Of a stretch of DNA of 45,510 bases, positions 10,905-35,473 are shown in pieces. Below the pieces are notes generated by a model that saw only the letters and a list, made by a program, of their open reading frames with translations, was not told the origin of the DNA and ran no database searches. Numbering within the stretch: position 1 is the stretch's first letter; the number at the start of each line of letters is the position of its first letter. Both the position numbers and the translations under genes were made by a program. The DNA lies in contig JAUSHB010000008.1 of NCBI GenBank assembly GCA_030648955.1, positions 1 through 45,510 of the forward strand, in the 5' to 3' direction. Origin of the DNA: a bacterium. Its GTDB lineage: Bacteria; Patescibacteriota; Minisyncoccia; Phycocordibacterales; JAUSHB01.

Positions 10905-11231
10905 TTATGAACTAGACCAATGTCCTGAACCAACACTAGATTTTTCTTTCAAAACAACGCACTTTATGTGTTTAGGGCGGAATCCCGACTGTACTACACG
11001 ACCCACAGATTTGGTCAATCTATCCAGTTCCTTCCCCCCAAGAACTATGGGACCAGAAATATGAACAATAATTTCTTCGCCTAGCCCCCAATTCATTCTA
11101 TCTGTTGGAAAAAATACTGCGAGAGATTCCATATCTCTAGACTTAAAAATATCGATTAAAAGCTTGGTCACCGTTTTGTAGATATCTTCATCAACTCCAT
11201 TAGGCGTACCCCAGATATAAATTGAGTTCAT
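10905..11231 (-). CDS. Hypothetical protein, 108 aa
   Basis: No family is assigned with confidence. The fold looks like alternating strands and helices (MNSIYIWGTPNGVDEDIYKT, then EEIIVHISGPIV). The size and pattern recall small tautomerase-like proteins, but the usual Pro-1 is not present. AGGAG lies seven bases before the ATG. It has its own consensus promoter (11273-11301) and ends at a shared palindromic terminator. Confidence 0.75.
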   Translation of the reverse strand: MNSIYIWGTPNGVDEDIYKTVTKLLIDIFKSRDMESLAVFFPTDRMNWGLGEEIIVHISGPIVLGGKELDRLTKSVGRVVQSGFRPKHIKCVVLKEKSSVGSGHWSSS

Positions 11232-19279: not shown

Positions 19280-19420
19280 TTAATTTAATCTTTGAGATTT
19301 TCCTCCAGGATAATTATCCATCATTATGGCCGGCCATATCCAGACTATAATAAATGTTATAACCCCCCAAATATATGATTCGCAGAACCAACCCCAAAGA
19401 GTCTCGAAGATTTTCTTCAT
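19280..19420 (-). CDS. Membrane microprotein, 46 aa
   Basis: A short gene that a length cut-off would miss. The protein starts MKKIFETLWGWFCESYIWGV and has one hydrophobic, Trp-rich helix (about 16-35), then a short polar tail (DNYPGGKSQRLN). Support is strong for so short a gene: a consensus promoter (19458-19486), GGAGGTG five bases before the ATG, and an intrinsic terminator just after the stop. It belongs to the SD-led orphan class. No homologue is recognised. Confidence 0.75.
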   Translation of the reverse strand: MKKIFETLWGWFCESYIWGVITFIIVWIWPAIMMDNYPGGKSQRLN

Positions 19421-19590: not shown

Positions 19591-19788
19591 TTAGCGCACC
19601 ATGCGCTTTCTTGGATGTGAGCGAGTATAGCCCTTTGGAGGCTCTGGTGACTTTGTTGAATTGTTGCCGGGGATCTTTTTGTCTCCTTCTTCGTCGGACA
19701 CGATTTTTGCTCTCCCAAAGGCAATTGTTACGAAAAGACCAGCAACTAGCCAAACAAATAGAACTGTCATCAATGTGTTAGCGTTCAT
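19591..19788 (-). CDS. Small membrane protein, 65 aa
   Basis: Not recognised. One N-terminal membrane helix (LMTVLFVWLVAGLFVTIAFG, about 6-25) precedes a basic, Pro-rich cytoplasmic tail (PEPPKGYTRSHPRKRMVR). GAGGAGG lies five bases before the ATG at 19788. It has its own promoter (19847-19876) and terminator. It is adjacent to the 46-aa microprotein gene and similarly organised. Confidence 0.75.
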   Translation of the reverse strand: MNANTLMTVLFVWLVAGLFVTIAFGRAKIVSDEEGDKKIPGNNSTKSPEPPKGYTRSHPRKRMVR

Positions 19789-33529: not shown

Positions 33530-33560
33530 AAAGTCTCGACAGTGTCGAGACTTTTATTTT
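33529..33560. terminator. Terminator between the 80-aa gene and rplU
   Basis: Perfect 12-bp stem AAAAGTCTCGAC / GTCGAGACTTTT with a 2-nt centre, then TTTTTAT. The A/T flanks allow action on both strands. Confidence 0.9.
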
Positions 33561-33907
33561 TATGTAACCGAAGAGATTTTCACTTTCATGTAGGGCTGAC
33601 GATGACCGCGTTTCTTGAAATACCTGCTTTTTGCTTTGTATTTAATAACAATCACTTTGTCCCCCATTCCTTCTTCTTCAAGTGTCGCCTCTATTTTTGC
33701 ACCAGAAAGATAGGGTGCGCCAATCTTGGTACTTACCCCATCATCCTTAAGAAGCACCTTGTCAAAAGCGATTATTGAGCCATTTTTGAGCTCTCCTGGA
33801 AGTTTCTCAATTGTGAGTGTCTGCCCTTCTGAAACTCGATACTGCTTCCCTCCGGTCTGTATAACCGCGAAGTGCGCCCCCTTAGTAATAGGTTTTCCTT
33901 TAGCCAT
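33560..33907 (-). CDS. rplU: 50S ribosomal protein bL21
   Basis: The family signature is FAVIQTGGKQYRVSEGQTLTIEKL near the N-terminus (split as FAVIQTGGKQYRV and SEGQTLTIEKL), then AKIEATLEEEGMGDKVIVIKYK and KKRGHRQPYMKVKI at the end. I start at the ATG at 33907 (115 aa). An upstream in-frame GTG (33916) lies against the predicted -10 box TAGAAT (33922-33917, minus). Only nine bases separate that box from the ATG, so the mRNA is probably leaderless. rpmA is not next to it, unlike in most bacteria. Confidence 0.95.
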   Translation of the reverse strand: MAKGKPITKGAHFAVIQTGGKQYRVSEGQTLTIEKLPGELKNGSIIAFDKVLLKDDGVSTKIGAPYLSGAKIEATLEEEGMGDKVIVIKYKAKSRYFKKRGHRQPYMKVKISSVT

Positions 33908-33988: not shown

Positions 33989-34016
33989 TTGACAGTTTGA
34001 GATTTTACTATATCAT
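33989..34016 (+). promoter_or_regulatory. Promoter of the putative small RNA
   Basis: TTGACA (33989-33994), 16-bp spacer, TATCAT (34011-34016). Transcription should begin near 34023. Confidence 0.7.
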
Positions 34017-34022
34017 ATGAAA

Positions 34023-34122
34023 TGTCACGAAAAGCATCTCCTCCTAGTTGTGCCCTAGTGACACAAGTGAGCACCTCCCGTTCACTTGCTTCGAGGAACG
34101 ACCCTGTCGTTCCTCTTTTTTT
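34023..34122 (+). ncRNA. Putative small regulatory RNA with two anti-SD loops
   Basis: A 100-nt unit with promoter and terminator but no credible coding frame. Hairpin 1: TGTCAC (34023-34028) pairs with GTGACA (34058-34063), with an inner GCA/TGC pair. Its apical loop 34037-34050 holds CTCCTCCT. Hairpin 2: CAAGTGA (34064-34070) pairs with TCACTTG (34082-34088), and its 11-nt loop holds CACCTCC. Hairpin 3: GAGGAACGAC / GTCGTTCCTC (34093-34115) is followed by seven T and is a textbook terminator. Both loops copy the anti-SD sequence of 16S rRNA and could pair with SDs of mRNAs. No known RNA family is recognised. The ORF over this stretch has no SD and runs through the terminator, so I do not call it a gene. 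Confidence 0.65.
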
Positions 34123-34128
34123 ATTAGC

Positions 34129-34202
34129 CCCACTGTGCAATAATCTTTTCTATTGCAATGACGAACTCTCAATCTCGTTACAAAAAATTATCGCACAGCG
34201 GG
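34129..34202. repeat. Long imperfect inverted repeat after the small RNA
   Basis: CCCACTGTGCAATAAT (34129-34144) matches the complement of ATTATCGCACAGCGGG (34187-34202) except for two positions. It lies between the small-RNA terminator and the rmuC stop and may be the rmuC 3' structure or a small mobile palindrome. Confidence 0.55.
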
Positions 34203-34215
34203 TCTATTAACAAAA

Positions 34216-35265
34216 CTACTCCTCTATGTTGGGACGATTTAACGCAATCGGTTCTATTTCAGGAGAAACTCCTGAAATCTTGAGCACATCTTTATCAATT
34301 TTTTTAAGTTCTTTGTGGGCTACATTGTAATGGTTTACCGTCGTGCCGAGTGCATTCCCGAGTTTAGCCATATATTGATCATAACTGCCAATATGACGTC
34401 CGAGTTCCCCCACTCTCTTCTGAATTTCTTTTGCAGACTCTTCGATCTGGAGAGCCCGCAGTCCCTGAAGAACTGTCTGGAGGTATGCCATGAATGATGT
34501 CGGAGACACAATAATCACATGTTTGTCACGAAATGCGTATTCGATGAGATCGCGCGCATCGGCACCCATTTTATTTACAAGAAGATCATAGTAAATTGCC
34601 TCGGATGGAATAAACATGAAAGCAAAATCCATCGTATTTTCCTTAGGACGGATGTATTTTGAGGTTTCATCAATACGATTTTTAATATCCTGCACAAAAA
34701 GTTTTTCAAGTCGCGTACGCTCATTGCCGTCAGGTTCTACCACAATGCGATTATAATTTTCCAGTGAAAACTTTGAATCTATCGGGAGTATCTTATCTTT
34801 AAGGAAAATGACCGCGTCCACGATATCGCCATCGACAAATTTGTATTGCAATTGATATTGGCTGGGCGGAAAAATATTCTTGAGCACGGTATCAAGATAG
34901 TATTCACCGAGCACCCCGCGCTGTTTTGGATTTTGAAGCGTATTTTGAAGTGATTTAAGCTGGTCGGCAACATTTACCACCTGCTTATTGGTTTCCTTCA
35001 CATGAGTGATTTGCTCAGTGATATCTTTAATGAGTTTTTGTGACTCACCAAATTGCACACGAACCGCTGTTTGCATTTCCCTATTAGATTCCCCCAATTT
35101 AGAATCTATTGATTTCGTTAAATGTTCTATTTGGTTTTGAAGCAATAAGAGTCCTTGCTGTTCCCCTTTTCCTTCTTCTTGGGCAACAGGAAACATGCGC
35201 ATAATAATCCACGCAATAAAGGCACCTACAATAACACCCAACACCACGTAAAGAGATACTGACAT
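34216..35265 (-). CDS. rmuC: RmuC family protein
   Basis: RmuC limits recombination at inverted repeats and has a predicted nuclease core. An N-terminal membrane helix (LYVVLGVIVGAFIAWIIM, about 5-22) is followed by a coiled coil (about 35-115) and the conserved core QRGVLGEYYLDTVL, then DGDIVDAVIFLKDKILPIDSKFSLENY, FAFMFIPSEAIYYDLL and VIIVSPTSFMAYLQTVLQGL. The ATG at 35265 (349 aa) follows the preceding gene by seven bases. GGAGGT lies 13 bases upstream, inside that gene, too far to be ideal. Confidence 0.93.
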   Translation of the reverse strand: MSVSLYVVLGVIVGAFIAWIIMRMFPVAQEEGKGEQQGLLLLQNQIEHLTKSIDSKLGESNREMQTAVRVQFGESQKLIKDITEQITHVKETNKQVVNVADQLKSLQNTLQNPKQRGVLGEYYLDTVLKNIFPPSQYQLQYKFVDGDIVDAVIFLKDKILPIDSKFSLENYNRIVVEPDGNERTRLEKLFVQDIKNRIDETSKYIRPKENTMDFAFMFIPSEAIYYDLLVNKMGADARDLIEYAFRDKHVIIVSPTSFMAYLQTVLQGLRALQIEESAKEIQKRVGELGRHIGSYDQYMAKLGNALGTTVNHYNVAHKELKKIDKDVLKISGVSPEIEPIALNRPNIEE

Positions 35266-35272
35266 GATTTCA

Positions 35273-35473
35273 TTACATACCTCCGTAAAACGTAGAGATA
35301 CCATTCAGAAGTGATGGTAAAATAACCGCCATAACAATAAGCGGAAGGACAAAAAATATGAGAGATGTGATAAGCGTCCACTGAAAATATTTCCGTGTTT
35401 TCTCTACAGATTTGTATATCTTATCAATCTTCACGTCCAATTCTTTTAATATATTTAATGTTTCCGGTTCCAT
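35273..35473 (-). CDS. Small membrane protein upstream of rmuC, 66 aa
   Basis: Not recognised by name. The N-terminal half is a short coiled coil (LNILKELDVKIDKIYKSVEK); a membrane segment follows (LITSLIFFVLPLIVMAVILP, about 34-53). It is translationally linked with rmuC. An extended -10 (TGGTATGAT, box 35515-35510 minus) lies about 36 bases upstream. There is no SD. A partner role at the membrane for RmuC is an inference from linkage. Confidence 0.7.
   Translation of the reverse strand: MEPETLNILKELDVKIDKIYKSVEKTRKYFQWTLITSLIFFVLPLIVMAVILPSLLNGISTFYGGM

Follow-up and report, generated by a model that had tools for sequence, protein, structure and literature searches.

The stretch at positions 33989 to 34122 of the window (the whole 45,510-nt stretch of DNA analyzed) lies between two protein-coding genes and carries a promoter-like sequence, C-rich hairpins, and a terminator, which raises the question of whether a small RNA is made here that pairs with Shine-Dalgarno (SD) sites of mRNAs.

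Genomic context and structure of the element

The element is located on contig C8 of a 973-kb genome of the Patescibacteria type (G000). The closest database relatives, judged from ribosomal protein L21, are Candidatus Paceibacterota, Parcubacteria, and Campbellbacteria MAGs. Pfam searches identified the flanking genes as rplU, encoding L21 (33560 to 33907, minus strand), and rmuC (34216 to 35304, minus strand). The promoter, the three-hairpin unit of about 100 nt, and the terminator described in the initial annotation are all present, as follows.

33989 to 34016, plus strand: sigma-70-type promoter, TTGACA-N16-TATCAT, matching 11 of 12 consensus positions
34023 to 34122, plus strand: predicted small RNA of about 100 nt, present once in the genome, with the 5' end inferred from the -10 box and the 3' end placed at the T run
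34023 to 34063, plus strand: hairpin 1, the same in the minimum free energy (MFE) and centroid structures, with pair probabilities
34038 to 34047, plus strand: anti-SD-like sequence of loop 1, CTCCTCCTAG, mean unpaired probability of 0.75
34064 to 34088, plus strand: hairpin 2, from the MFE and centroid structures and pair probabilities
34073 to 34079, plus strand: anti-SD-like sequence of loop 2, ACCTCCC, unpaired probability of 1.00
34093 to 34122, plus strand: intrinsic terminator with a 10-bp stem (third hairpin, 34093 to 34115), a 3-nt loop, and T7

The folding energy of positions 34015 to 34130 was -38.3 kcal/mol, compared with -18.7 ± 3.16 kcal/mol for shuffled sequences (z = -6.2), and none of 200 shuffles was as good. 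As in genes of trans-acting small RNAs (sRNAs), the locus has its own promoter and an intrinsic terminator, recognized at the level of consensus only, and contains no conserved open reading frame (ORF). Positions 33989 to 34122 are thus likely to be a stand-alone, independently transcribed small-RNA gene, as predicted, and that a small RNA of whatever function is transcribed from 34023 to 34122 is probable.

Loop accessibility and chance level of the double CCTCC

The two loops were said to be exposed, and the computed structure agrees: they present CUCCUCCUAG and ACCUCCC, the first mostly and the second fully open. A weak 4-bp inner stem closes loop 1 and lowers its mean openness to 0.75; the CCTCC inside the loop is 0.86 open. 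When the 70 nt preceding the terminator were dinucleotide-shuffled 3,000 times, 14 shuffles had two accessible CCTCC motifs at least 12 nt apart, and two CCTCC motifs were present in 0.14% of intergenic 70-nt windows. Among the 28 terminators of the genome with noncoding upstream DNA, only that of this element is preceded by two CCTCC motifs, the genome-wide chance expectation being about 0.04 to 0.13 across these approximately 28 units. The double anti-SD display is therefore improbable for one locus and marginally surprising genome-wide, which is suggestive and no proof. A strict scan for two-hairpin CCTCC units returned a zero count that is uninformative, since the weak inner stem of hairpin 1 causes the scan to miss even this element.

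Search for homologues

Conservation in related genomes, which was to be checked with a covariance model, was found neither by blastn nor by covariance model nor by synteny. In 60 relatives, blastn retrieved no homologue and only short noise matches, mainly to the terminator and T run. A covariance model built from the single sequence found no relative in 297 genomes of the order and 384 of the class (overlapping draws, about 640 distinct genomes) and no homologue on selected contigs of relatives. Its matches were all subthreshold; of the two loci inspected, L033 did not have the architecture and L034 was a bare terminator. No counterpart was found in the syntenic regions upstream of rplU in relatives, and no relative of the sRNA was found in phages and plasmids. 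Viral contigs gave only 16-mer matches, which the covariance model did not confirm and which look like chance. Likewise, no loop motif was seen to be retained on varying stems, as no homologue was found and the divergent strand in relatives was not enriched in C-rich motifs.

The closest genomes compared belong to the same order, and none is from the same genus or family; the conservation test therefore reaches deep divergences only. Absence of conservation in relatives had been named as grounds for rejecting the sRNA, and at the available depth it is indeed absent, but a close relative for a fair application of this test is lacking. With no relative found, there is no covariation evidence for the sRNA. 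Since the published stems of multiloop anti-SD RNAs diverge, the failure of a single-sequence covariance model is not final. So far, the element is an orphan small RNA, unique among the genomes searched.

The rmuC-rplU spacer can be aligned by gene order in many relatives, in which the two genes are co-oriented and adjacent. Divergent TTGACA promoters upstream of rplU were observed in L041, L089, L043, and L048, with predicted, previously undescribed, C-rich structured transcripts of about 180 to 300 nt; L041 and L089 have the promoter region in common, and L043 and L048 the 3' part. None of the four transcripts had an Rfam match. A fast-evolving spacer sRNA family comprising these four was considered and is unsupported by the alignments and by the strand counts in 23 spacers of relatives (14 CCTCC versus 10 GGAGG). 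A further candidate was rejected in G068, the nearest relative examined (C7 near 3,300; L239:3230-3375): it has a promoter, hairpins, CCTCCTAG, and a terminator, but its CCTCC is mostly paired (0.2 open). The same unit also contains TTCCTCCTCGG; its motifs are mostly paired, and it has no Rfam match.

Comparison with known RNA families

No Rfam family matched the sRNA above its gathering score. The best weak match on the sRNA strand, to the alphaproteobacterial sRNA ar14 (RF02344) at 34020 to 34118, scored 20.1 bits, below the gathering score of 58.8; the likeness consists of this weak covariance match only, and it was taken as chance.

The Rhizobiales RNAs RFMSmelA075 and RFMSmelA099 are the group later named cuckoo RNAs. 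The element resembles the cuckoo type in that at least two of its hairpins present C-rich open loops, here upstream of an intrinsic terminator, and it departs from that type in that its hairpin loops are CTCCTCCTAG and ACCTCCC instead of CCUCCUCCC throughout. The published rhizobial RNAs have three or four hairpins with CCUCCUCCC in every loop, and a covariance model was inadequate for them since their stems diverge (PMC3927594). They share with the present sRNA the placement of several hairpins with anti-SD motifs in the loops of one short RNA; their loops are kept while the stems diverge, and binding to ribosome-binding sites has been proposed for them (PMC3927594). In contrast, the loops here read CUCCUCCU and ACCUCCC, the host belongs to another phylum and its 16S rRNA has no anti-SD, no sequence homology was found, and no conservation is shown for the sRNA here. 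The statement that no family with this layout had been described thus needs to be amended, since the rhizobial CCUCCUCCC-loop RNAs are published (PMC3927594), although it stands insofar as those RNAs are not homologous to this one. Staphylococcus aureus RNAIII, CyaR, and AbcR1 (cited in PMC3927594) are similar in that a C-rich loop or single-stranded stretch blocks translation by pairing with the SD, but they differ in structure, lineage, and partner proteins, and the 16S rRNA of their hosts competes for the sites. The sRNA would therefore work, if at all, by a principle like that of the cuckoo RNAs, without being a member of that family.

Loss of the anti-SD from 16S rRNA and SD motifs on accessory genes

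The loops had been described as mimicking the anti-SD of 16S rRNA. The 16S gene of the host (C21:5210-6805) ends in GTGGATTATTTCAAGGTG, without CCUCC, and the sRNA loops therefore do not mimic the 16S rRNA of this cell. In the tail, ...GCTAGCGGAAGCTGGTCGTGGATTATTTCAAGGTG (C21:6790-6810), helix 45 is intact and CACCTCCTT is replaced. CCTCC is absent from all 29 readable 16S tails of relatives in the order, which are of the GGATTATTTCAA type and often form a short inverted repeat. Elsewhere in the class, outside the order, 11 tails keep CCTCC and 14 are without it, and in other classes of the phylum it is kept in 24 of 25 Patescibacteria. The relatives covered by these 16S comparisons were L203-L232, L249-L278, and L342-L370. 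Paceibacteria are reported to have mostly lost Era, the known binding site of which takes in the anti-SD (PMC12641178, PMC10582724). According to the portions available of a survey of 20,648 taxa, 128 are without a consensus anti-SD and generally also without SDs, and those portions make no mention of this group (PMC6107228). Our literature search found no publication on anti-SD loss in this group, a negative result that does not prove there is none.

SD motifs are nevertheless found in the host genome. The most enriched 5-mers before its ATG starts are AGGAG (29 versus 3.4 expected) and GGAGG (21 versus 2.1; z of about 14), and at SD spacing they precede about 5% of its genes (about 3 to 5% across G000 and G068). 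Among genes of at least 120 amino acids, a reciprocal best hit in G068 was obtained for only 2 of 40 SD-led genes versus 347 of 729 others (P = 1e-8), and in G068 itself for 2 of 22 versus 345 of 633 (P = 3e-5); the gene calls were crude (longest ATG ORFs) and the SD test simple, and spurious ORFs could add to the accessory set. Candidate functions of ten SD-led genes include two M23 peptidases, LysM, a thymidylate kinase, and a cation-efflux-like protein, the rest having no assignment. SDs are thus a property of accessory genes, whether left over from transfer or kept for some role besides 16S pairing. The order-wide loss of the 16S anti-SD, together with SD motifs on accessory genes, is a more robust result than the sRNA and arguably a more interesting one.

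In both G000 and G068, -10-like hexamers peak 12 nt before ATG genome-wide. In G000, 56 of 768 genes have such a hexamer at -12, compared with about 10 genes at each other position. Leaderless starts therefore look common, suggesting many leaderless mRNAs in both genomes.

Putative targets and mode of action

The four SD complements quoted in the initial annotation do exist: CUAGGAG (gene at 11231), AGGAGGA (gene at 899), AGGAGG (gene at 19788), and GGAGGTG (gene at 19420). Genome-wide there are nine perfect 8-nt matches to loop 1 (CTAGGAGG), including that of the RNA gene. Four of these sites are located 13 to 14 nt upstream of an ATG that opens a short accessory ORF, and three of these ORFs encode paralogous secreted proteins (C10:61395, minus strand; C13:61616 and C13:62574, plus strand), and the best-matching leaders for the sRNA are the CCTAGGAGG sites of this small secreted-protein family. 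The three paralogues have a common leader, CGACCCTAGGAGGTCAT, before the ATG, which is partly self-complementary (GACC/GGTC). Elsewhere in the window, a terminator-like hairpin, AACACCTCCTTAATCTAGGAGGTGTTTTTTT, in the region of 25651 (plus strand) includes CCTCC and CTAGGAGG.

Predicted duplexes of -12 kcal/mol or stronger were formed by loop 1 at the start regions of 144 genes versus 162 in controls 70 to 120 nt upstream, and by loop 2 at 46 versus 73. In duplex strength at start regions, the real loops were at most slightly better than shuffled ones. With no duplex excess over the upstream controls, a target set is not distinguished. Of the proposal that the RNA pairs with SD-led mRNAs, the complementarity of its C-rich loops to SD-like leaders therefore stands, while the pairing itself is plausible rather than proven. 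Hfq was not found in the genome, which, like the missing duplex excess and the lack of homologues and covariation, speaks against regulation by loop pairing; the double CCUCC could also be chance.

The reading considered most likely, with a probability of roughly 0.4, is that the sRNA is a trans-acting regulator that pairs through its loops with AGGAGG-like leaders and blocks 30S loading. It builds on a computed promoter, structure, terminator, open loops, complementary leaders, and lack of a 16S anti-SD; that the sRNA is transcribed, that it pairs inside the cell, and in which direction it acts are inferences. The putative RNA would be an independently transcribed, intrinsically terminated noncoding RNA of about 100 nt, whose loops CUCCUCCUAG and ACCUCCC may initiate pairing with AGGAGG-like sites 8 to 14 nt before start codons. 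The targets would be a minority of accessory genes, on which pairing would block 30S loading. Since the host 16S rRNA is without an anti-SD, the sRNA would meet no competition for those sites from base pairing by the ribosome. It is very unlikely that the sRNA supplies the anti-SD in trans, recognizing SD sites left only on accessory, perhaps foreign, genes and silencing or enabling them, so that incoming SD-led genes would be told from the SD-less core at the RNA level.

Alternative explanations

A genuine small RNA may also be made in which the loop CCUCC is incidental, acting through a protein or other mRNA segments or being a lineage-specific transcript without anti-SD function. This explanation is doubtful but has to be taken seriously: the element is unique to this genome, duplex targets are no more numerous at start regions than in upstream controls, and by the strand counts in the 23 spacers C-rich loops do not characterize the divergent transcripts of relatives. 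It is countered by the rarity of two accessible CCUCC motifs within 70 nt in the shuffles and by the perfect openness of loop 2. A chance association of fold, promoter, and terminator at a locus that is not transcribed is unlikely; the lack of conservation would fit, and matching a promoter consensus does not establish function (6 sites versus 3.5 expected in 1.3 kb), but a single stretch of 134 nt holds a fold with a z of -6.2, a textbook terminator, and, at the right distance, an 11/12 promoter.

An ATG at 34022, at the predicted start site, opens a 62-amino-acid frame (34022 to 34210) that reads through the terminator, which counts against a noncoding sRNA and would make the locus a leaderless small mRNA or an attenuated leader. 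The abundance of apparently leaderless starts, with 56 genes having the hexamer at -12, agrees with this, yet it is improbable. The frame would have to be read across a strong terminator with its U tract, and relatives match it only at residues ~26 to 58, where the similarity is due to a dispersed palindromic repeat and no gene; the -10 box is at -11, a position without excess in this genome (7 genes). Directly after the terminator, at 34126 to 34207 of the window, is a palindromic MITE-like repeat of about 80 nt (CCCC..TGTGCAATAA ... TTATCGCACAGCGGG), with related copies on contigs C9, C10, C11, and C19 of the host genome and several in G025. The minus strand could instead be the meaningful one, as a structured leader of rplU (33560 to 33907, minus strand) with loops exposing GGAGG motifs. 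In many relatives rmuC lies next to rplU in the same orientation, so that a transcript reading through would include the element. Even so, this is highly improbable: T7 follows the stem on the plus strand only, no rplU-leader family of Rfam matched, and the candidate minus-strand promoter (33945 to 33917) is downstream of the element, which would therefore be outside the rplU mRNA.

Implications

If real, the loop-pairing sRNA would represent RNA regulation by base pairing in Patescibacteria, in a genome in which no Hfq was found, and its target motif would be one that the ribosome's own RNA does not read. Its context makes it possible to test why SD motifs persist before accessory genes in the absence of a 16S anti-SD and what, if anything, reads them.
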